From NCBI RefSeq assembly GCF_001488575.1, contig NZ_LN831302.1, forward strand, positions 310,001-374,000: a DNA stretch of 64,000 nt. Reading direction: 5' to 3'. The notes under the pieces are model-generated. The model worked only from the letters and a program-made list of their open reading frames with translations, ran no database searches and was not told the origin of the DNA. This document shows positions 4,561-39,909 of the stretch, in pieces (the first letter of the stretch is position 1; each line of letters begins with the position of its first letter). The DNA comes from Halobacterium hubeiense. GTDB taxonomy: Archaea > Halobacteriota > Halobacteria > Halobacteriales > Halobacteriaceae. The position numbers and the translations under genes are program-made.

Positions 4561-5973
4561 ATGGGCGACGACATCGAGGACGTCTACGGGGACCTCGACA
4601 CCGACGTGTCCCTCGAGGAGTTCCGGGACGCCGTCGAGTCGAAGGTCGAACAGATGGGCGGACTGGCCGACGAGGAGACGGCCGCTATGCTCATCGCCCA
4701 CGAGCTCGAGGACGGCGAGGTCAACGGCGTCGCCGACGTCGAACCGGAGATGGACGAGGTGAAGTTCATCGCGAAGGTGACCAGCATCGGCGACGTCCGC
4801 ACGTTCGAGCGCGAGGACGACGACGAGAACCCGGAGGGCCGCGTGGTGAACGTCGACGTCGCCGACGAGACCGGCAGCGTCCGGCTGTCGCTGTGGGACG
4901 AGCAGGCCGAGGGCGCCAAAGAGGAACTGGAGGTCGGCGACGTGCTCCGCGTGAAGGGCCGGCCGAAGGACGGCTACAACGGCATCGAGGTCAGCGCCGA
5001 CCAGGTCGAGGTGGACAACGAGGAGGACGTCGACGTGCAGGTGCAGGACGAGTACCGCGTCGAGGACCTCTCGCTGGGCATCTCGGACGTGAACCTCACG
5101 GGCGAAGTGCTGGGCACGGAGGACGTGCGGACGTTCGACCGCGACGACGGCAGCGAGGGGCAGGTGTCGAACGTCGTGCTCGGCGACGAGACCGGGCGCG
5201 TGCGCGTCACGCTCTGGGACGAGCAGGCCGAGACCGCGACCGAACTCTCGCAGGGCGAGGTCGTCGAAGTCGTGGACGGCTACGTGCGCGAGCGCGACGG
5301 CAGCCTCGAACTCCACGTCGGCGACCGCGGCGCGGTCGAACCCGTGGACGCGGATGTCGCGTTTGTGCCGGACACCACGGCCATCGAGGACCTCGAACTC
5401 GACGACGTGGCGGACATCGCGGGCGTGATTCGCTCCGCGGACCCCAAGCGGACGTTCGACCGCGACGACGGCAGCGAGGGCCAAGTCCGGAACGTGCGCG
5501 TGCAGGACGACACGGGCGACATCCGCGTGGCGCTGTGGGGCGACAAGGCCGACCTCGACGTCGGGCCGGGCGACGAGGTGGCGTTCGTGGACGTCGAGAT
5601 TCAGGACGGCTGGCAGGACGACATCGAGGCCTCCGCGGGCTGGCAGTCGTCGGTCATCCCGCTCGCCGACGGTGCGACCACCGGCGAGGACGGCGACGAT
5701 TCGGGCAGCGGCCCGACCGGGCTGTCGGCGTTCGAGGACGGCAACGACCCGAGCAGCGACACCGACGACAGTTCGCCGAGCGACGACGACGCGGACGACG
5801 GCGAGGAAGTCGAGTTCACGGGCGTCGTCGTGCAGGCCCAGAACCCCGTGATTCTGGACGACGGCGAGGAGACCGTGAGCGTCGAGACGGACGCGGACGT
5901 CACGCTCGGCCAGGAAGTGACCGTCCGGGGGCTGCTCCGGGACGGTCGCCTCCGCGCCAAGGAACTGCACTGA
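4561..5973 (+). CDS. rpa2: Replication protein A, multi-OB-fold ssDNA-binding protein (Rpa2 type)
   Basis: This 470-residue acidic ssDNA-binding protein would act in replication and repair. After an N-terminal helical region (residues 1-60), three OB folds follow (about 70-160, 175-270 and 275-360), each with a strand pattern ending in V-x-LWD. A Ser/Asp-rich linker (about 380-415) leads to a short OB-like C-terminus starting VEFTGVVVQAQNP. OB2 and OB3 share the almost identical segment RTFDRDDGSEGQV, also near-identical in DNA, which points to internal duplication. The start is the ATG at 4561, with an AT-rich CTTATG about 33 nt before it. The neighbouring histone and deacetylase genes match the haloarchaeal rpa2 locus as I remember it. 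Confidence 0.82.
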   Translation: MGDDIEDVYGDLDTDVSLEEFRDAVESKVEQMGGLADEETAAMLIAHELEDGEVNGVADVEPEMDEVKFIAKVTSIGDVRTFEREDDDENPEGRVVNVDVADETGSVRLSLWDEQAEGAKEELEVGDVLRVKGRPKDGYNGIEVSADQVEVDNEEDVDVQVQDEYRVEDLSLGISDVNLTGEVLGTEDVRTFDRDDGSEGQVSNVVLGDETGRVRVTLWDEQAETATELSQGEVVEVVDGYVRERDGSLELHVGDRGAVEPVDADVAFVPDTTAIEDLELDDVADIAGVIRSADPKRTFDRDDGSEGQVRNVRVQDDTGDIRVALWGDKADLDVGPGDEVAFVDVEIQDGWQDDIEASAGWQSSVIPLADGATTGEDGDDSGSGPTGLSAFEDGNDPSSDTDDSSPSDDDADDGEEVEFTGVVVQAQNPVILDDGEETVSVETDADVTLGQEVTVRGLLRDGRLRAKELH

Positions 5974-9156: not shown

Positions 9157-9266
9157 GGGGCCTTAGCTTAGTCTGGTTCAAAGCCCCCGGCTCATATCGG
9201 CGTCCGTCCGCGTGGCGGGTGTCGTGGGACACCGGGTGAGCGGTGGTTCAAATCCGCCAGGCCCCA
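9157..9266 (+). tRNA. Intron-containing tRNA-Met (anticodon CAT), elongator type
   Basis: The acceptor strands GGGGCCT (9157-9163) and AGGCCCC (9259-9265) pair, with discriminator A. The D-stem is GCTT/AAGC, the anticodon stem CCCGG (9186-9190) / CCGGG (9232-9236), and the T-stem GGTGG/CCGCC with loop TTCAAAT. The anticodon CAT is at 9193-9195. Between positions 37 and 38 lies an extra 34 nt (9197-9230), the canonical archaeal intron site. Haloarchaeal elongator tRNA-Met is known to carry an intron there. A tRNA-Ile2 with CAT is the alternative. Confidence 0.85.
9197..9230 (+). other. 34-nt tRNA-Met intron
   Basis: These bases lie between tRNA positions 37 and 38 and are needed out for a normal 7-nt anticodon loop. 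They would be removed by the archaeal splicing endonuclease at a bulge-helix-bulge. I did not verify that structure by folding. At 34 nt the intron is much shorter than the roughly 75-nt one recalled for Haloferax tRNA-Met. Confidence 0.7.
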
Positions 9267-28456: not shown

Positions 28457-31093
28457 CTACTCGTCCAGCCGCCGCTGCCACTCCTGCACGCGCGAGAGCA
28501 GTTCCACCGGCGGCGTCTCGTTCACGTCCACGTCCCGGAGGTCGTCCAGCACCTCGCGGGCCTCGGAACCGAGGCCGTCTGCCTCGCCGCCGTCGGCCGC
28601 GCTCTCCGTCCCGGTCGCCGGCTGCGATTCCGCGCCCGTCTTGACTTCGCCCGATTCGAGGTCGAACACCGCCTGCACCGGCTCGCTTGCGGAACCCCGG
28701 GCTTCGACGGCTTTCTCGTCTCGGAGGCGGTCCAGCACCTCCCGCGAGCGGTCCACCACGGGGTCGGGGACGCCCGCGAGGTCCGCGACGTGGACGCCGT
28801 ACGAGCGGTCGGTCGCGCCGTCTCTGACGGTTCGCAGGAACGTCACGTCCCCATCCCGTTCTTCCGCCGCTACGTGGACGTTCGCGACGTCGGCGAGGTG
28901 GTCCGCGAGCGCCGTGAGTTCGTGGTAGTGGGTCGCGAACAGGGTCTTCGCGCGCACCTCGTTGTGCAGGTACTCTGTGGCTGCCCACGCAATCGAGATG
29001 CCGTCGTAGGTCGCGGTCCCGCGCCCGACCTCGTCCAGAATCACCAGCGAGCGCTCGGTCGCGGCGTGGAGGATGCGGCTCAGTTCCTGCATCTCCACCA
29101 TGAACGTCGAGCGGCCCTGCGCGAGTTCGTCCAGCGCGCCGACGCGGGTGTAGATGCCGTCTACGACCCCGATTCGGGCGCTGTCTGCGGGCACGTAGCT
29201 CCCGACCTGCGCGAGCAGGACGATGAGCGCGACCTGTCGCATGTACGTGGACTTCCCGCTCATGTTCGGCCCCGTGACGACGAGGAACCGCCGGCCGTCG
29301 CCGAATCGGGCGTCGTTGGGCACGAACTCGGTGGTCTGCTCGACCACGGGGTGGCGCCCGCCCTCGATTTCGAGGTCGTCGCCGTCCACGAGGTCCGGGC
29401 GCACCCAGCGGTTCGCGGCGGCGTGCTCGGCGAGGCTCGCGAGCGCGTCCAGTTCCGCGAGCGCGCGGCCGACGCGCTGGAGGGCTTCCGCGCGCTCGCC
29501 GACCCACTCGCGGAGGTCGTCGAACAGTTCGTACTCCAAGTCGCCGCGCTCCTCCTCGACGCGCAGAATCCGACGCTCGCGCTCCTCTAACTCCTCGGTG
29601 GTGTACCGTGTGGAGTTCTTCAGCGACTTCACCTCCCGATACTCGTCGGGCACCGCGTCGGTCTCTGACTTCCCGACCTGTACGTAGTAGCCGTCGGTCT
29701 TGTTCCGGTCGACCTGCAGGTGCGTGATGCCGAGTCGGTCCTTCTCGCGGGACGCCAGCCCGTCCAGCCACTCCTCGTGCTCGCGGGCTTCTCGGAGCAG
29801 TTCGTCCAGTTCGTCGTCGTAGCCCTCGCGCAGGAGGCCGCCCTCGCGGAGCGTCTTCGGCGGGTCCGCCGCGAGCGCGGCGTCCAACTCGGCGCGCACC
29901 CCCTCGGCCGCCTCGCGGTCCACGCCGTCCAGTACCTCGCTCACGGGCGAGGCCGCGAGGTCCGGGTCGGATTCGAGCGCGTCCGCGGCCTCCGGGAGCG
30001 TCGCCAGCGTCTCCCGGATTCGGAGCAGGTCAGTCGCGTCCGCGCGGCCGCCGGCCGCCCGGCTCGCGAGCCGTTCGAGGTCGTAGACGTCGCCGAGCAC
30101 GTCTCGGAGCGCGTCCCGCGCGAGCGGCGCGTCAGCGAGCGCGCCCACGGCGGCTTGCCGACGTTCCAGTTCCGCGCGGTCCCGGAGTGGACGCGTCAGC
30201 CACGCCTGCAGCCGCCGACCGCCAGCAGCGGACACTGTGTGGTCGAGCGTCGCGAACAGCGAGCCCTCTCCATCTCCGCCCATCGTCGCCGTGAGTTCGA
30301 GGTTGCGCTGGGTCGTTGCGTCCAACTCCACGTGGTCGTCCGCGCGGTACGGCTGGAGCCGCGTCAGCGACGCCAGCACGCCCGCGTCCGTCGCCGCGAC
30401 GTAGTCGATTGCCGCGCCCGCTGCTCGCGCTGCCGGACTGTCACTCGCGACGCCGAGGCTGTCGAGCGCTCCGTCGCCGAACTGCTCGCGCACGCTGTGG
30501 GCGGCCTTCCCGGGCGCGAACGACGCCGCCTCGTGGAGCGTCAGCGTCGCGTCCGCGCGCTCCCGGAGTGCCCCGAGGAAGTCGTCGTCGCTGCGCAACT
30601 CGGGACCGGGAAGCACTTCCTCGGGGCTGAAGCGGTGCAGTTCCGTCAGCGCGTCCGTCTCCGTCTCGGCGTCCGCGACGTGGAACTGGCCGGTCGTCAC
30701 GTCCACGAACGCCAGCCCCCACGTCTCGTCGCGCACGACCGCCGCGAGGTAGCGGGCGTCCGCACCGGTCACGTCAACGAACGTTCCCGGGGTCGCGACC
30801 CGGGTGATTTCGCGCTCGATGTCGTCGGCGCCGTCCTCGATTTGGTCGGCGACGGCGACCCGGTAGCCGCGCTCGACGAGTGTCGCGACGTACGGCGTCA
30901 GGTCGTCGACAGGCACGCCCGCCATCGGGTACGACGACCCGTGCGCGGACTTCTCGGAGACCTGCAGGTCGAGGACGTCCGCGACCGTGCGCGCGTCCTC
31001 CGCGAAGAACTCGTAGAAGTCCCCGACCTGCATCGCCAGCAGGTCGGCGTCCGTCTCCTCCTTGAGGTCGAGGAACTCCTCGACTATGCCCAT
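28457..31093 (-). CDS. mutS: DNA mismatch repair protein MutS
   Basis: This 878-residue MutS1-family mismatch recognition ATPase has the N-terminal mismatch-binding motif GDFYEFF (Phe-x-Glu type), a connector and lever region, and the C-terminal ATPase. The Walker A is [13 protein letters not shown], and the Walker B is followed by [17 protein letters not shown] Glu/Ser-rich tail precedes the last helix. It would act with MutL encoded 40 bp downstream. A second full MutS is encoded at 37267-39852, so the organism has two MutS1-type proteins. Confidence 0.95.
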   Translation of the reverse strand: MGIVEEFLDLKEETDADLLAMQVGDFYEFFAEDARTVADVLDLQVSEKSAHGSSYPMAGVPVDDLTPYVATLVERGYRVAVADQIEDGADDIEREITRVATPGTFVDVTGADARYLAAVVRDETWGLAFVDVTTGQFHVADAETETDALTELHRFSPEEVLPGPELRSDDDFLGALRERADATLTLHEAASFAPGKAAHSVREQFGDGALDSLGVASDSPAARAAGAAIDYVAATDAGVLASLTRLQPYRADDHVELDATTQRNLELTATMGGDGEGSLFATLDHTVSAAGGRRLQAWLTRPLRDRAELERRQAAVGALADAPLARDALRDVLGDVYDLERLASRAAGGRADATDLLRIRETLATLPEAADALESDPDLAASPVSEVLDGVDREAAEGVRAELDAALAADPPKTLREGGLLREGYDDELDELLREAREHEEWLDGLASREKDRLGITHLQVDRNKTDGYYVQVGKSETDAVPDEYREVKSLKNSTRYTTEELEERERRILRVEEERGDLEYELFDDLREWVGERAEALQRVGRALAELDALASLAEHAAANRWVRPDLVDGDDLEIEGGRHPVVEQTTEFVPNDARFGDGRRFLVVTGPNMSGKSTYMRQVALIVLLAQVGSYVPADSARIGVVDGIYTRVGALDELAQGRSTFMVEMQELSRILHAATERSLVILDEVGRGTATYDGISIAWAATEYLHNEVRAKTLFATHYHELTALADHLADVANVHVAAEERDGDVTFLRTVRDGATDRSYGVHVADLAGVPDPVVDRSREVLDRLRDEKAVEARGSASEPVQAVFDLESGEVKTGAESQPATGTESAADGGEADGLGSEAREVLDDLRDVDVNETPPVELLSRVQEWQRRLDE

Positions 31094-33097: not shown

Positions 33098-33445
33098 ATG
33101 AGCACACAGTCACGACCGAACGCACAGAAGCCGATTCGCGTCGTGGACGGCGAACAACTCCGCGACGTCCTCGACAGCCACGACCGCGTGCTCGTGGACT
33201 TCTACACGAAGGGCTGCTCGCTCTGTCAAGCCATCGAGCCAGTGCTGGGCAACGTCGCGAAAGCCACGGGCATCACGGTCGCGATGGTCAACCCCGGCGA
33301 CGACATCTCGCTCGTGGAGGAGTGGGACATCACGAGCGCGCCGACACTCGTGCTCGTCGAGGACGGAGAAGAAGTCGGGCGGCTCGCAGAGGGATTCAAG
33401 GGTGGCGACGACATCGAGGCGTTCCTCGACGAGCACCTCGACTAG
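33098..33445 (+). CDS. Thioredoxin-family protein with CSLC active site
   Basis: This 115-residue thioredoxin-fold protein has the redox motif FYTKGCSLCQAIEP at about residue 42, with CSLC in place of CGPC. The cis-proline is in SAPTLVLVEDG. The altered middle residues should change its redox potential compared with classical thioredoxin. A TATA-like ACATTT lies about 10 nt upstream and TTTTCC about 28 nt upstream. It converges on the RNAP epsilon gene with a 4-bp overlap. Confidence 0.88.
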   Translation: MSTQSRPNAQKPIRVVDGEQLRDVLDSHDRVLVDFYTKGCSLCQAIEPVLGNVAKATGITVAMVNPGDDISLVEEWDITSAPTLVLVEDGEEVGRLAEGFKGGDDIEAFLDEHLD

Positions 33446-34161
33446 TCGTCGCTGGCTGCCTCCTCGGGGACGTCGCGTTCGGTGACGTCCGGGAGGTGGG
33501 GGTCGCGGTTCGGGTTCCGGCCGAACGCCGGCAGCCCGTCGTCTAACTGTTCTTTCAGCACGCGGCGCAGCCGATTCAGGCTCGTCTTGTCGAGGCCGTG
33601 GCGCTCGGCGAGCGCCGCGAACGCGGGCTCGTCGGTGACGTCGTGGCTGCGGTACCGCTCGTAGAGGTCGTTCATGCGCTCCTGGGAGAGGTCCGCGGGG
33701 TCGAGGTCGTCGATGCCGAAGTACCGGCGCCGGTCGACGTCGACGACGTGGCGGATGACCACGAGCGCGACCTTCTCGATGGCGCGCTGGCTGCCGAACT
33801 CCGTGAGGTCGATTTCCCCCATCACGCCGAGCGCGACGTCGCGCTGCCACGGCGTCACGTCCACGGCGTTACACAGCGCCTGCGTGGTGCGCAGGCGGTC
33901 GAGGTAGTGGGTGCGGCGGCTGTGGCCCTCGGTCGCGGTGTGGCGCTCCTCGTGGAGCCGCCGGACGCTCTCCGAGAGGTCCGCGTCCGGGGACTCCGCG
34001 CGCCCGATGACGGTCGCGCTCGGGGAGACGACGCCCCACTTGCGGACCGTCGTGTCGCGCTGGGCTTCCGCCCGCGAGAGCGCGCCCGAGCCCGGCCGGT
34101 GTTCGACGCGGCGCTCCTCGCGCGTCTCCCAGCGAATCTGGTCGCCGCCGTCGGCACTCAT
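33442..34161 (-). CDS. DNA-directed RNA polymerase subunit epsilon (haloarchaeal)
   Basis: This 239-residue haloarchaea-specific protein is annotated in related genomes as RNA polymerase subunit epsilon. It carries the conserved RDTTVRKWGVVSPSATVIGR (about residues 34-53) and RTTQALCNAVDVTPWQRD, with a helical cyclin-like middle resembling TFB folds. The start is the ATG at 34161; TTTAAA at 34187-34192 is centred 28 nt before it, which supports a leaderless start and excludes the longer frame to 34272. Three copies of a 44-bp promoter-like repeat also lie upstream on the same strand. Confidence 0.82.
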   Translation of the reverse strand: MSADGGDQIRWETREERRVEHRPGSGALSRAEAQRDTTVRKWGVVSPSATVIGRAESPDADLSESVRRLHEERHTATEGHSRRTHYLDRLRTTQALCNAVDVTPWQRDVALGVMGEIDLTEFGSQRAIEKVALVVIRHVVDVDRRRYFGIDDLDPADLSQERMNDLYERYRSHDVTDEPAFAALAERHGLDKTSLNRLRRVLKEQLDDGLPAFGRNPNRDPHLPDVTERDVPEEAASDD

Positions 34162-34186
34162 TAGCGGTACCTGTGGCCTCCCGCGG

Positions 34187-34192
34187 TTTAAA
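34187..34192 (-). promoter_or_regulatory. TATA box of RNAP epsilon gene
   Basis: TTTAAA centred 28 nt upstream of ATG 34161 gives a transcription start at the start codon. It is independent of the 44-bp repeat at 34234-34277. Confidence 0.55.
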
Positions 34193-34233
34193 CTCTCGGC
34201 TGGCGGCGCCGTCGCTGTCGAACGTAACTCCCC

Positions 34234-34277
34234 GAGAAGTCCTTCGTATCTAGCTCTTGTCGCCAGAAGCACTTAAA
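34234..34277 (-). repeat. 44-bp promoter-like repeat, copy 1
   Basis: In the minus sense it begins TTTAAGTG, continues TCTGGCGACAAG and AGATACGAA, and ends CTTCTC. The TATA-like TTTAAG lies about 26 nt before the invariant ATACGAA, where transcription would start. It heads towards the RNAP epsilon gene. The gene-free stretch 34162-34559 holds copies 1-3. Confidence 0.7.
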
Positions 34278-34318
34278 CGAACGACGCGCTGGTCGCTCGG
34301 CGGAGTGTCGAGCAGTCA

Positions 34319-34351
34319 CGACGGCGCCGCGGCTACGAGGCGTAGCGCGCT
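34319..34351 (-). repeat. 33-bp flank shared by 44-bp repeats 2 and 5 (with hairpin)
   Basis: This 33-bp sequence is identical, except for one base, to 35374-35406. Both lie directly next to a 44-bp repeat, just downstream of it in the minus sense. Bases 34332-34346 form a perfect 6-bp stem with a 3-nt loop (GCTACG-AGG-CGTAGC). Confidence 0.6.
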
Positions 34352-34395
34352 GAGAAGCTGTTCGTATCTACGCCTTGTCGCCAGAGACACTTAAA
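34352..34395 (-). repeat. 44-bp promoter-like repeat, copy 2
   Basis: Same invariant blocks as copy 1 (TTTAAGT, TCTGGCGACAAG, AGATACGAA, CTTCTC), with changes limited to a few positions. It lies 118 bp from copy 1. Confidence 0.7.
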
Positions 34396-34473
34396 GAGAA
34401 TCTGCACGGCTCGCCGCTCGCGAGTCGGAGTTGGACTCCGCAGACAGCCGCGACTGGTCGGCGAAGTGCTCGG

Positions 34474-34517
34474 GAGAAGTCCTTCGTATCTATCCCTTGT
34501 CGCCAGAGATACTTAAA
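34474..34517 (-). repeat. 44-bp promoter-like repeat, copy 3
   Basis: Differs from copy 4 at a single base (A for G at the eighth minus-strand position). It lies 122 bp from copy 2 and 43 bp past the end of the DsbA-like gene. Confidence 0.7.
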
Positions 34518-34559
34518 TCAGGTTCGCGCGTCGGCTGACTGCCGACAGCCCGCTCGCGC

Positions 34560-35186
34560 TTACGTGCCTTCGACGAGCCGGCGGAGCTGGGACGGCGGGA
34601 CGGCGCCGCGCGCGCCGTAGCCGTCGTACGCGAACGTCGGCACGCCGCTGATGCCCTGCTGTTGGGCCTCGCGGAACTTCGCGCGGAGTTCGTCGTGGTA
34701 CTGCTCGGTTTCGACGACCTCCCGAATCTCGTCGGGGTCGAGGCCGACGTCCTCGGCGAGGTCCGCGAGCACGTCCACGTCGCCGATGTCGCGACCCTCC
34801 TCCCAGAGTGCCTCGAAGATGGCGACGTCGAAGTCCAGCCACTGCTCGGGGTGCTCGTCGCTGACGTACAGGGAGGCGGCCTGCGCGTCCAGCGAGTCGA
34901 CCTCCCCCGAGAAGTCCATCTGCATCTCGTCGGCGCCGTACTCCTCCTTGAGGCGCTGGACGTTCTCGCGGGCCTTCTCGAAGTACTCGTCGTCCTTGCC
35001 GTCGTCGACGCTGTGGTCGATTTCGCCGTCCGGCCCGCGCTTCTGCGCGCGCAGGTCGAAGGGCTGCCAGTCGATGTCGAGTTCCTCCTCGCGCTCTGCC
35101 TGGTACTCCGACAGCGACTGCCGCCCGAGGTAGCAGAACGGGCAGACGTAGTCGGAGTACACCGTGATTTCGTCGGCGTCGCTCAT
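34560..35186 (-). CDS. DsbA/FrnE-family thiol-disulfide oxidoreductase
   Basis: This 208-residue thioredoxin-fold protein of the DsbA-like FrnE family has the redox motif VCPFCYLG near residue 14, a helical insertion, and the cis-proline loop SGVPTFAYDGYGARGAVPP at about 180. No signal peptide is present, so it acts in the cytoplasm. The start is ATG 35186. The gene lies in the middle of an array of five 44-bp repeats (copies 4 and 5 upstream, copies 1-3 downstream), all in its own orientation, which may control it. Base composition is like its neighbours. Confidence 0.85.
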   Translation of the reverse strand: MSDADEITVYSDYVCPFCYLGRQSLSEYQAEREEELDIDWQPFDLRAQKRGPDGEIDHSVDDGKDDEYFEKARENVQRLKEEYGADEMQMDFSGEVDSLDAQAASLYVSDEHPEQWLDFDVAIFEALWEEGRDIGDVDVLADLAEDVGLDPDEIREVVETEQYHDELRAKFREAQQQGISGVPTFAYDGYGARGAVPPSQLRRLVEGT

Positions 35187-35289
35187 CGCCGTCCGGTAGG
35201 ACGCGCACGCCGAAAAGACCCCTGCTGGCGGGGGTTCCCGCTGGGGCCGCGACGACTGACGAGCCGTCGGCTCCGCGGTCGGTGTCGCC

Positions 35290-35333
35290 GAGAAGTCCTT
35301 CGTATCTATCCCTTGTCGCCAGAGACACTTAAA
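35290..35333 (-). repeat. 44-bp promoter-like repeat, copy 4
   Basis: Closest to the consensus. It lies 103 bp upstream of the DsbA-like start on the same strand, so a transcript from it would carry a leader of about 120 nt with a 5-bp triloop hairpin at 35261-35273. Confidence 0.7.
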
Positions 35334-35373
35334 CGAGGTCCGCGCTCGCCGCGCCGCCGACCGCTCGCGGGAA

Positions 35374-35406
35374 CGACGGCGCCACGGCTACGAGGCGTAG
35401 CGCGCT
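35374..35406 (-). repeat. 33-bp flank shared with 34319-34351
   Basis: Identical to 34319-34351 except A for G at 35384. It includes the GCTACG-AGG-CGTAGC hairpin at 35387-35401 and adjoins repeat copy 5. Confidence 0.6.
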
Positions 35407-35450
35407 GAGAAGCGCTTCGTATCTGTCCCTTGTCGCCAGAGGCACTTAAA
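35407..35450 (-). repeat. 44-bp promoter-like repeat, copy 5
   Basis: Outermost copy, 117 bp from copy 4. In it the last block is a perfect palindrome, GAAGCGCTTC; the other copies have near-palindromic versions. Confidence 0.7.
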
Positions 35451-35609
35451 GCGAGAGCGCGCTGCCGCCCGCGGAGAAGATGTTCGGCGAAACGGCTTCC
35501 GTTCACCGCCAGCACCGACTACGTGCGCGGCTGGTGTCCCCTCGTGGCGGGTCCGCCGCGACGGCCAGCCCGCAGTGGTCTAACGTCCGATGGCGAGTCT
35601 TCGATTCTC

Positions 35610-37266: not shown

Positions 37267-39852
37267 TCAGTCGAGGTCGCGCTTGAGGTCGTTCAGGACG
37301 TTCAGCGCCTCCACGGGCGTGAGTTCCGCGACGTTCACGTCACGCAGCGTCTCTTCGACGGCCGACTCGTCGTGGTCGCCGCTGTCTGCCGTCCGCGCCG
37401 GCTCCGTCTGCTCCTCGCTCGCGTCCGCGTCCACGTCTGCCGCGTCGAGGAGTTCGCGGGCGCGCTCGACGACTGCCTCGGGGACGCCCGCAGTTTGGGC
37501 GACCTCGACGCCGTAGGAGGCCGTCGCCGGCCCCTCCCGCACTTCGTGTTGGAAGGTCACGCCCTCCTCGTTCCGGGTTGCGCCGAAGTGGAGGTTCACG
37601 GCGTCCGCGAGGCGCTCTGCGTCCGCCGTGAGTTCGTGGTGATGGGTCGCGAACAGCGTTGTCGCGCCGAGTTCGTCGTGGACGTACTCGGTGACGGCGC
37701 GCGCGATGGCCAGGCCGTCCGTCGTGGAAGTCCCTCTGCCGACCTCGTCCAGCAACACCAGCGAGTCCTCGGTCGCGGCGCGCAGAATCGAGGAGAGTTC
37801 GGTCATCTCCACCATGAACGTCGAGCGCCCGCCCGCGATGTCGTCGCTGGCGCCGACGCGCGTGAAGATGCGGTCGACCACGCGGAGGCGCGCGCGCTCG
37901 GCGGGGACGAAGCTCCCCGCCTGCGCGAGCAACACGATCAGGGCGACCTGGCGCATGTACGTGGACTTCCCGCTCATGTTCGGGCCCGTGACGACCGCGA
38001 CCCGGCGTTCGGGCGTGAGGTCGGTGTCGTTCGGCACGAACCCGGCCTCCGTGCGCTCCACGACGGGATGGCGGCCGCCCTCGACGTGGATGCCGTCGCC
38101 GCCCACCTCGGGGCGCGCGTAGTCGTGGCTCGCGGCGACTGTCGCGAACGACGCCAGCGCGTCCACGGCCGCGACTGCTGCCGCGGTCGCCTGCACGCGC
38201 TCGGCCTCCTCGGCGACCCGATTGCGGACCTCGCGGAACAGCTCGTACTCGAGGTCCTGGGAGCGCTGTTCGGCGCGCACGATGTCGTCCTCGCGCTCCT
38301 TCAGCTCGGGCGTGACGAACCGCTCGGAGTTCTTCAGCGTCTGCCGGCGCTGGTAGTTCGCCGGCACCGAGTCGAGGTTCGGGTTCGTCACCTCGATGTA
38401 GTAGCCGTGGACCGCGTTGTGCCCGACCTTCAGCGAGTCGATGCCCGTGCGCTCGCGCTCCTGTTCCTCCAAGTCATCTATCCACCGCTTCCCGGAGCGC
38501 TCGGTCTCCCGGAGGTCGTCCAGCGTCTCGTCGTAGCCGTCGCGGATGACCCCGCCCTCCGTGAGTTCCTGGGGCGGGTCCGGGACGATGGCCCGCGAGA
38601 GCAGGTCCCGAATCTCGGGGAGGTCGTCGAGACTCGCGCGCAGGTCGCGGAGCTTCTTGCTGTCCGCGTCCGCCAGCAGGCCGCGAATTTCGGGCACCAC
38701 GTCGAGCGTGTCCTTCAGCGCGCGTAGGTCCCGGGCGTTCGCGCGGCCCCGCGACACCCGCGAAATCAGGCGCTCGACGTCGTAGACGTCCCGCAGGTGC
38801 TCGTGCAGTTCCTCCCGCGTCAGCGGGTCCGCGAGCAGTTCGCCGACCGCCTCGTGGCGCGCCTCGATTTCCTCGGCGTCGGTCAGCGGCCGGCGCAGCC
38901 AGTCCGTGAGCGTCCGCCGGCCGAGCGCGCACGCCGTCTCGTCGAGCACGTCCACGAGCGCGGTGCCTTCCGCGCCGTGGACGCTGCGCTGCTCGAACAC
39001 CTCCAGACTCCGCAGCGCCACGGCGTCCATCTGGAGGTACTCGCGGGGGTCGTACCGCGTCAGGTGGTTCAGGTAGTCCAACCGGTCGCCGTCCTCCCCA
39101 CCTCGGGTGTACTCGGCGTAATCGAGGAGCGCGCCACACGCCGCGACTTCGGCGTCGCCGGCGAGCGCGTCCACGCTCCCGAAGTACGCCGCCACGGTCT
39201 CCGCGGCGCGCTCGCCGTCGAACGCCGCGTCCTCGTACTCCGCGACGAACGTGCCATCCTCGAAGCGCTCCGCCGCCACGCCCGGTCCGGTGACAAGTTC
39301 TGCGGGCGCGAACCGCCCCAGTTCGTCCCGTACGCGCGCCGCGTTCGGGAGGCTCGTCGCGTAGAAGTCGCCGGTCGAGACGTCCAACAGCGCGAGGCCG
39401 AAGCCGCCGTCGTCGTCGGCCGCGACCGCCGCGACGAAGTTGTTGTCGTCGCCCCCGAGCAGTTCGTCCTCGGTCAGCGTCCCGGGCGTGACGACCCGGG
39501 TGACAGCGCGCTCGACGACCCCGGTGACCTCGTCTGGGTCCTCGACTTGGTCGGCGACCGCGACCCGGTAGCCCGCGTCAAGCAGGTCGTCGATGTACGG
39601 CTCCGCGTTGTCGATTGGCACGCCCGCCATCGGGTACTCGCCCGTGGAGTCCTCGCGGGCGGTCAGCGTAATCTCGCAGATGCGGGCGGCCGCCTCCGCG
39701 GCCTCGCAGAACAGCTCGTAGAAGTCCCCGACCTGGAAGAGCACGAGCGCGTCCTCGTAGCGCCGCGTGAGCTCGAAGTACTGGCTCATCATCGGCGTCA
39801 GGTCACCCTCGCTTTCGGCCATCTTCTCGGGTGGGCCGAGCGCCGCGTCCAT
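37267..39852 (-). CDS. mutS: DNA mismatch repair protein MutS (second copy)
   Basis: This 861-residue MutS1-family protein has the mismatch-binding GDFYELF near the N-terminus and the ATPase motifs [13 protein letters not shown] and [16 protein letters not shown]. It is clearly paralogous to the 878-residue MutS at 28457. The start chosen is ATG 39852, since a CATAAC promoter core centred near 39880 is placed for a leaderless transcript there; ATG 39822 ([10 protein letters not shown]) is the alternative. It converges on nucS with no gap. Confidence 0.94.
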
Positions 39853-39909
39853 GCACGAAGGCAACGGGGTGGCGGCTGTTATGCTCGTCGGTCAGCGCTC
39901 CGCTTTCGG

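Follow-up and report, generated by a model that had tools for sequence, protein, structure and literature searches.

A promoter-like element that accompanies the gene for RNA polymerase subunit epsilon across Halobacteria

The locus examined here raises the question of what a 44-bp element is doing when it is repeated five times beside the gene for RNA polymerase subunit epsilon. The window analysed was a stretch of 64,000 nucleotides from Halobacterium hubeiense (contig NZ_LN831302.1, positions 310,001 to 374,000). The copies are located on the minus strand at 34234–34277 (copy 1, nearest rpoEps), 34352–34395 (copy 2), 34474–34517 (copy 3), 35290–35333 (copy 4) and 35407–35450 (copy 5), with start-to-start distances of 118, 122, 816 and 117 bp, so that all five were found exactly where the original prediction had placed them. 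The predicted layout was also correct: three copies lie upstream of rpoEps (33442–34161, minus strand, 'DNA-directed RNA polymerase subunit epsilon'), which is the gene whose presence the element follows throughout Halobacteria, and two lie upstream of a DsbA-like thioredoxin-fold gene (34560–35186, minus strand, PF01323, E 8.8e-36) situated between the two groups of copies. In copy 1 the parts are TTTAAGT at 34277–34271, TCTGGCGACAAG at 34267–34256, the initiator AGATACGAA at 34251–34243 and CTTCTC at 34239–34234. Two minus-strand units of 82 nt, 34318–34399 containing copy 2 and 35373–35454 containing copy 5, are 90% identical, indicating that the array has partly grown by duplication of whole units. 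On either side of the rpoEps/DsbA/NAD-synthase region is a MutS-like gene (window 28457–31093 and 37267–39864); the two lie on the same strand with about 6 kb between them. Elsewhere in the window Rfam reported a tRNA of 110 nt (52 bits) at 9157–9266 (+), 90 bp past tRNA-Asn; it is missing from the ARAGORN list and is probably an intron-containing tRNA gene.

The pattern TCTGGCGACAAGNNNNAGATACGAA gave 5 matches in the window against 0.00 expected from 100 shuffles. When the 3.13-Mb genome was searched with TTTAAGTNNNTCTGGCGACAAG, allowing up to 3 mismatches, the five array copies alone were matched, and these are also the only exact copies on the chromosome. The looser core TTTAAGTNNNTCTSGNNACAAS recovered the five array copies and one exact copy on contig C4, together with two genome matches carrying 3 mismatches, which is the level of the reversed-pattern control. 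The sixth copy is a variant upstream of a distant second rpoEps-like gene, so that all six copies in the genome adjoin one of its two rpoEps-like genes. This paralog is located at C4:100251–100652 (locus L172, 2764–3318), about 280 bp downstream of the variant element TTTAAGTaacTCTCGTTACAAC, on a contig of 112 kb that is probably a plasmid; gene and element may form an independent epsilon-promoter pair. Each of the 13 Halobacterium genomes searched contained two to six copies clustered in one place. A dispersed repeat, which had been offered as an alternative, is not supported because every copy in this genome has an rpoEps-like neighbour, five flanking rpoEps itself and one preceding the plasmid-borne paralog; a mobile repeat with many gene-free copies was found neither in the genome nor in the class-wide searches.

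The anatomy of the element was profiled over 216 copies from many genera, with positions counted from the first T of TTTAAGT. The profile revealed one conserved block, consisting of C/G at −10 to −8, pyrimidines and C at −3 to −1, TTTAAGT at 0–6, TCTSGNNACAAS at 10–21 and an initiator at 26–33, with conservation fading by +37, about 10 nt past the proposed start. Transcription would begin at approximately +28 to +30, a position that we infer and that sets the GC box at about −37, the TATA box at about −27 and the near-invariant 12-bp TCTSGNNACAAS at about −18 to −7. Promoters of H. salinarum have GC at −36 and TATA at −26 (PMC6523106), and the GC box, TTTAAGT and lineage-conserved initiator of the element at these published distances favour the promoter-like character originally claimed for it. 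The initiator is lineage-specific, being ATACGA in Halobacterium; element variants upstream of rpoEps start with CATAGTGAG or CGTAGTGAG in family f7 and genus g27 and with ATATAGAC in g31, and AGATACGA and CGTAGTGAG represent two different element types. Further downstream TTCT is enriched at +39 or +45–52, and in many copies an AGYN4RCT dyad follows 23 ± 2 nt past TTCT wherever TTCT sits, as with AGTCGCGGCT at 34446–34455 (minus strand) 3' of copy 3. Of 118 copies, 100 agreed in the third pair of the dyad, compared with 78 after permutation. Across all element copies the mutual distance of 23 nt is fixed while the pair slides by about 9–10 nt relative to the start, within +39 to +80 from the TATA start. 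No clear T-run terminators were seen at a fixed distance after the element.

A nearly invariant motif of 12 bp that lies between TATA and start, occurs in tandem copies and is associated throughout the class with one protein-coding gene could also be the operator of a repressor or activator, either epsilon or another rpoEps-linked protein, that overlaps a promoter and acts at the DNA level alone. The motif, however, is not an inverted repeat, and about 20% of copies front no gene. The TATA box, GC box and initiator are conserved together with it at fixed spacing, as would be expected of a promoter rather than of a lone operator, and we regard the operator as an improbable explanation.

The original prediction had proposed a search of related genomes, and this showed the element and rpoEps together across Halobacteria. 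Neighbour clustering in the fetched loci identified one gene adjoining the elements in 28 loci from four families, the epsilon gene. Among 392 Halobacteria genomes the exact core was present in 146 and rpoEps in 160, with both in 145, rpoEps alone in 15, the element alone in 1 and neither in 231; the reversed-pattern control gave at most 1. The totals entered into the co-occurrence table, 146 and 177, equalled the search tallies. The Fisher test gave p ~1e-88 with no correction for relatedness, and as the genomes are kin these counts are not independent events. Gains and losses are scattered inside families, the genera of f1 including some with both and others with neither. At least five of the rpoEps-only genomes (G019, G159, G174, G207 and G260) hold variants of the core differing by one or two bases. 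The link is not obligatory, since genera g41, g74 and g49 have rpoEps orthologues with no recognisable element nearby and the element was found in none of the 17 genomes with only weak rpoEps homologues. The sole element-only genome, G009, is a fragmented assembly in which no rpoEps reading frame was found on the 5.9-kb contig, which ends about 300 bp past the array. At locus L182 (Halobacterium sp. CBA1126, 5700–5937) the contig stops about 300 bp beyond the array, at the expected place of rpoEps, in a reading frame that looks like a transposase. In the listed genomes 77 of 147 listed elements were within 1.5 kb of rpoEps, against approximately 0.1% expected by chance, and 47 were more than 50 kb away or on a different contig. 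Viral contigs gave 16 exact core matches, nearly all in contigs of low GC; these lacked both initiator and rpoEps and were taken as chance. The few genes examined near unlinked copies were too mixed for a coherent regulon: a GNAT acetyltransferase, an HTH_10 regulator, a glyoxalase, an M48 peptidase, a Na/Ca exchanger, UbiA, RlaP and GTP cyclohydrolase. In family f6 (L120, L124, L126, L075 and L086) rpoEps lies between elements that point towards it from both sides, and the copy on its 3' side would thus be antisense to the gene.

Mapping onto the epsilon protein tree required 4 changes for initiator type and 12 for taxonomic family; initiator type tracks the epsilon protein clade and not the taxonomic family. 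The conflict between protein tree and taxonomy means that transfer occurs, and some epsilon genes and element copies are plasmid-borne. Epsilon and the element could on these grounds be passengers in one mobile or inherited block, with no functional contact between them. For linked copies, co-transfer of DNA could produce the match between initiator and clade, and therefore unlinked copies, defined as those on another contig or more than 100 kb away, were compared. These nearly always had the same initiator type as the copies beside rpoEps of their genome: the unlinked copies of G236 are of GTAAG type like its linked copy, those of G134 have ATACGA, those of G104, G094 and G066 have ATATAGAC, and in three genomes of genus g67 they are of the ATATAGAC type seen near epsilon in a fourth genome. 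Both initiator types occur in one genome, G387, where they are found together on a plasmid replicon. The agreement at unlinked copies is most simply read as a sign of one shared reader acting in trans, with a preference that changes along with epsilon. This agreement counts against mere passengers, as do a near-invariant core retained over highly diverged lineages, which signifies continuing selection, the low copy number per genome and an element in which neither terminal repeats nor a transposase gene were seen. We consider the passenger explanation very improbable.

The context of the element was examined for 190 copies using gene calls from a simple script. The next feature was a same-strand gene for 82 copies, another copy for 69 and the end of a convergent gene for 39, the last being odd for mRNA promoters. 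Each start is followed by about 60–110 nt of room up to the next element (median 94) or gene. Most lineages examined have a separate TATA-like box for rpoEps, about 30 nt before the ATG; in the window this is the putative start-proximal TATA GTTTAAAC of a leaderless promoter (34186–34193, minus strand), about 28 nt before the ATG, and a similar TATA-like box, TCTTTTCGG / GTCTTTTCGG, is proposed from the sequence at about 35210–35219 (minus strand), approximately 28 nt before the ATG of the DsbA-like gene. From the copy contexts and the separate TATA of rpoEps, the copies are therefore not simply mRNA promoters and look like short transcription units.

Such units might be tandem small-RNA genes, in which the element is retained as a family promoter and the functional product is an RNA of about 65–110 nt, which might act on the epsilon polymerase or together with it. 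The regular room after each start, the fifth or so of copies that face convergent genes and the TTCT and dyad motifs at their constant distance are in keeping with this explanation. Arm-matched hairpins of 8–11 bp directly after the initiator also agree with it in three lineages (f1g3, z −4.7; G387, z −3.1; G134, z −2.1). Perfect hairpins of 9–11 bp with differing sequences were observed directly after the initiator at L226 (G387, Halorussus vallis plasmid, 1554–2100) and L125. Against it, the predicted transcripts showed no general RNA structure, with a mean folding z of −0.22 compared with −0.19 for upstream DNA, and arm-swap and half-swap tests detected no matched arms in Halobacterium, f3 or f6. 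The putative transcribed side is not conserved beyond the short motifs, and Rfam returned no match above gathering score and two chance-level matches at a permissive threshold. The structure found was confined to three lineages and did not amount to a small-RNA family with covariation in all of them, and an early guess that a hairpin with a TTCT loop was a general feature was dropped. As general structure is lacking and hairpins are confined to three lineages, the promoter class is ranked first and small-RNA genes, which we judge unlikely, second; the two explanations overlap.

The epsilon protein of the window is a member of the archaeal RpoEps family (H. salinarum OE_1279R, PMC8305020), sharing 53–61% identity with annotated plasmid homologues named 'DNA-directed RNA polymerase subunit epsilon', and rpoEps orthologues were found class-wide. 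According to the older papers cited by PMC8305020, epsilon was found decades ago in purified halophile RNA polymerase. The polymerase containing epsilon is reported to transcribe native templates efficiently, unlike the polymerase lacking it, and the same review terms its biological relevance enigmatic (PMC8305020). At the thresholds used epsilon received no Pfam or NCBIfam assignment and no Pfam TFIIB, and sequence searches of Pfam and the PDB gave nothing convincing. An AlphaFold2 model built with 42 sequences was helical, with a mean pLDDT of 76 and a core of about 90. In a Foldseek search of the PDB most of the top 20 matches were TFIIB, Brf2, archaeal TFB and cyclins, with probabilities of up to 0.95 and a best E of 0.4; as the E-values are not significant, the resemblance of the model to the TFIIB/cyclin fold is to be taken as a lead. 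Epsilon as a TFB homologue was rejected after hhalign against the seven TFBs of its own genome gave a probability of 0.3%.

The joint presence and absence of element and rpoEps in 392 genomes suggests that epsilon serves a promoter class of its own. The explanation we consider probable, judged from sequence comparison, is a dedicated core-promoter class that is read by the epsilon-carrying RNA polymerase, drives short tandem noncoding units and includes the regulation of rpoEps. Each copy would be a complete core promoter, composed of the GC box, TTTAAGT, TCTSGNNACAAS and the lineage-specific initiator, and would drive a noncoding unit of about 65–110 bp, stopping short of the next copy or gene. 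The reader would be epsilon, a protein predicted to be helical and with a model similar to the TFIIB/cyclin fold, and the polymerase bearing it would recognise TCTSGNNACAAS and the initiator within the region to be melted. Through the copies preceding rpoEps, where the start-proximal TATA lies just downstream of the last copy, epsilon may control its own gene. A tentative extension, which we hold with less confidence, is that epsilon is a TFB-like or sigma-like promoter-specificity factor for a class defined by a motif between TATA and start, with autoregulation and with arrays of noncoding RNA that feed back on the polymerase. If epsilon does read the class, promoter choice in an archaeal polymerase would involve a subunit that is neither TFB nor TBP. 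The link between element and epsilon is visible only class-wide and not from a single window. An element nearly confined to epsilon genomes, with a start region that tracks the epsilon clade, is a concrete target. Such a promoter class lends itself to assays in the presence and absence of epsilon, which makes the relevance of this enigmatic subunit testable.

When the element was compared with known systems, it shared both boxes of the canonical Halobacterium promoter at the distances given in PMC6523106, but differed in the addition of the near-invariant 12-bp motif and a conserved initiator and in its narrow distribution, at 1–9 exact copies per genome. The original prediction had likened the array to the tandem promoters of haloarchaeal rRNA operons, and this held for the TATA box, spacing and tandem layout but not for the start sequence or TCTSGNNACAAS. 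The rrn upstream region of the same genome contained TTAAGT, a 21-nt spacer and tandem repeats of about 133 bp, but had a ATGCGAACGAC start and lacked TCTSGNNACAAS. In general the rrn promoters (P1–P4 upstream of 16S) resemble the element in having (C/T)TTAAGT and N21 before an ATRCGAA-type start, in tandem repetition at 117–133 bp and, in some lineages, in hairpins past the start. They differ in that the element array has no rRNA downstream, the 16S gene of H. hubeiense being about 310 kb away at C1:34218, and in that the rrn start is ATGCGAACG while the element start is ATACGAA in H. hubeiense and other initiators occur in other lineages. Lineages f7 and g27 have an element start changed to CGTAGTGAG but have kept an rrn start of ATGCG/ATGCAA type, and the initiator and spacer motif together rule out the rrn promoters as members of the same class. 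For RpoEps itself, the papers searched connect epsilon neither with a DNA element nor with TFIIB-like folds. The last comparison is with promoter-specificity factors, the alternative sigma factors of bacteria and the TFB paralogues of archaea. The epsilon sequence is not recognisable as TFB or sigma, and its proposed motif is downstream of TATA rather than at the BRE. The proposed logic is nevertheless that of these factors, a dissociable initiation factor that co-occurs with its own promoter class and would control it, its own gene included.
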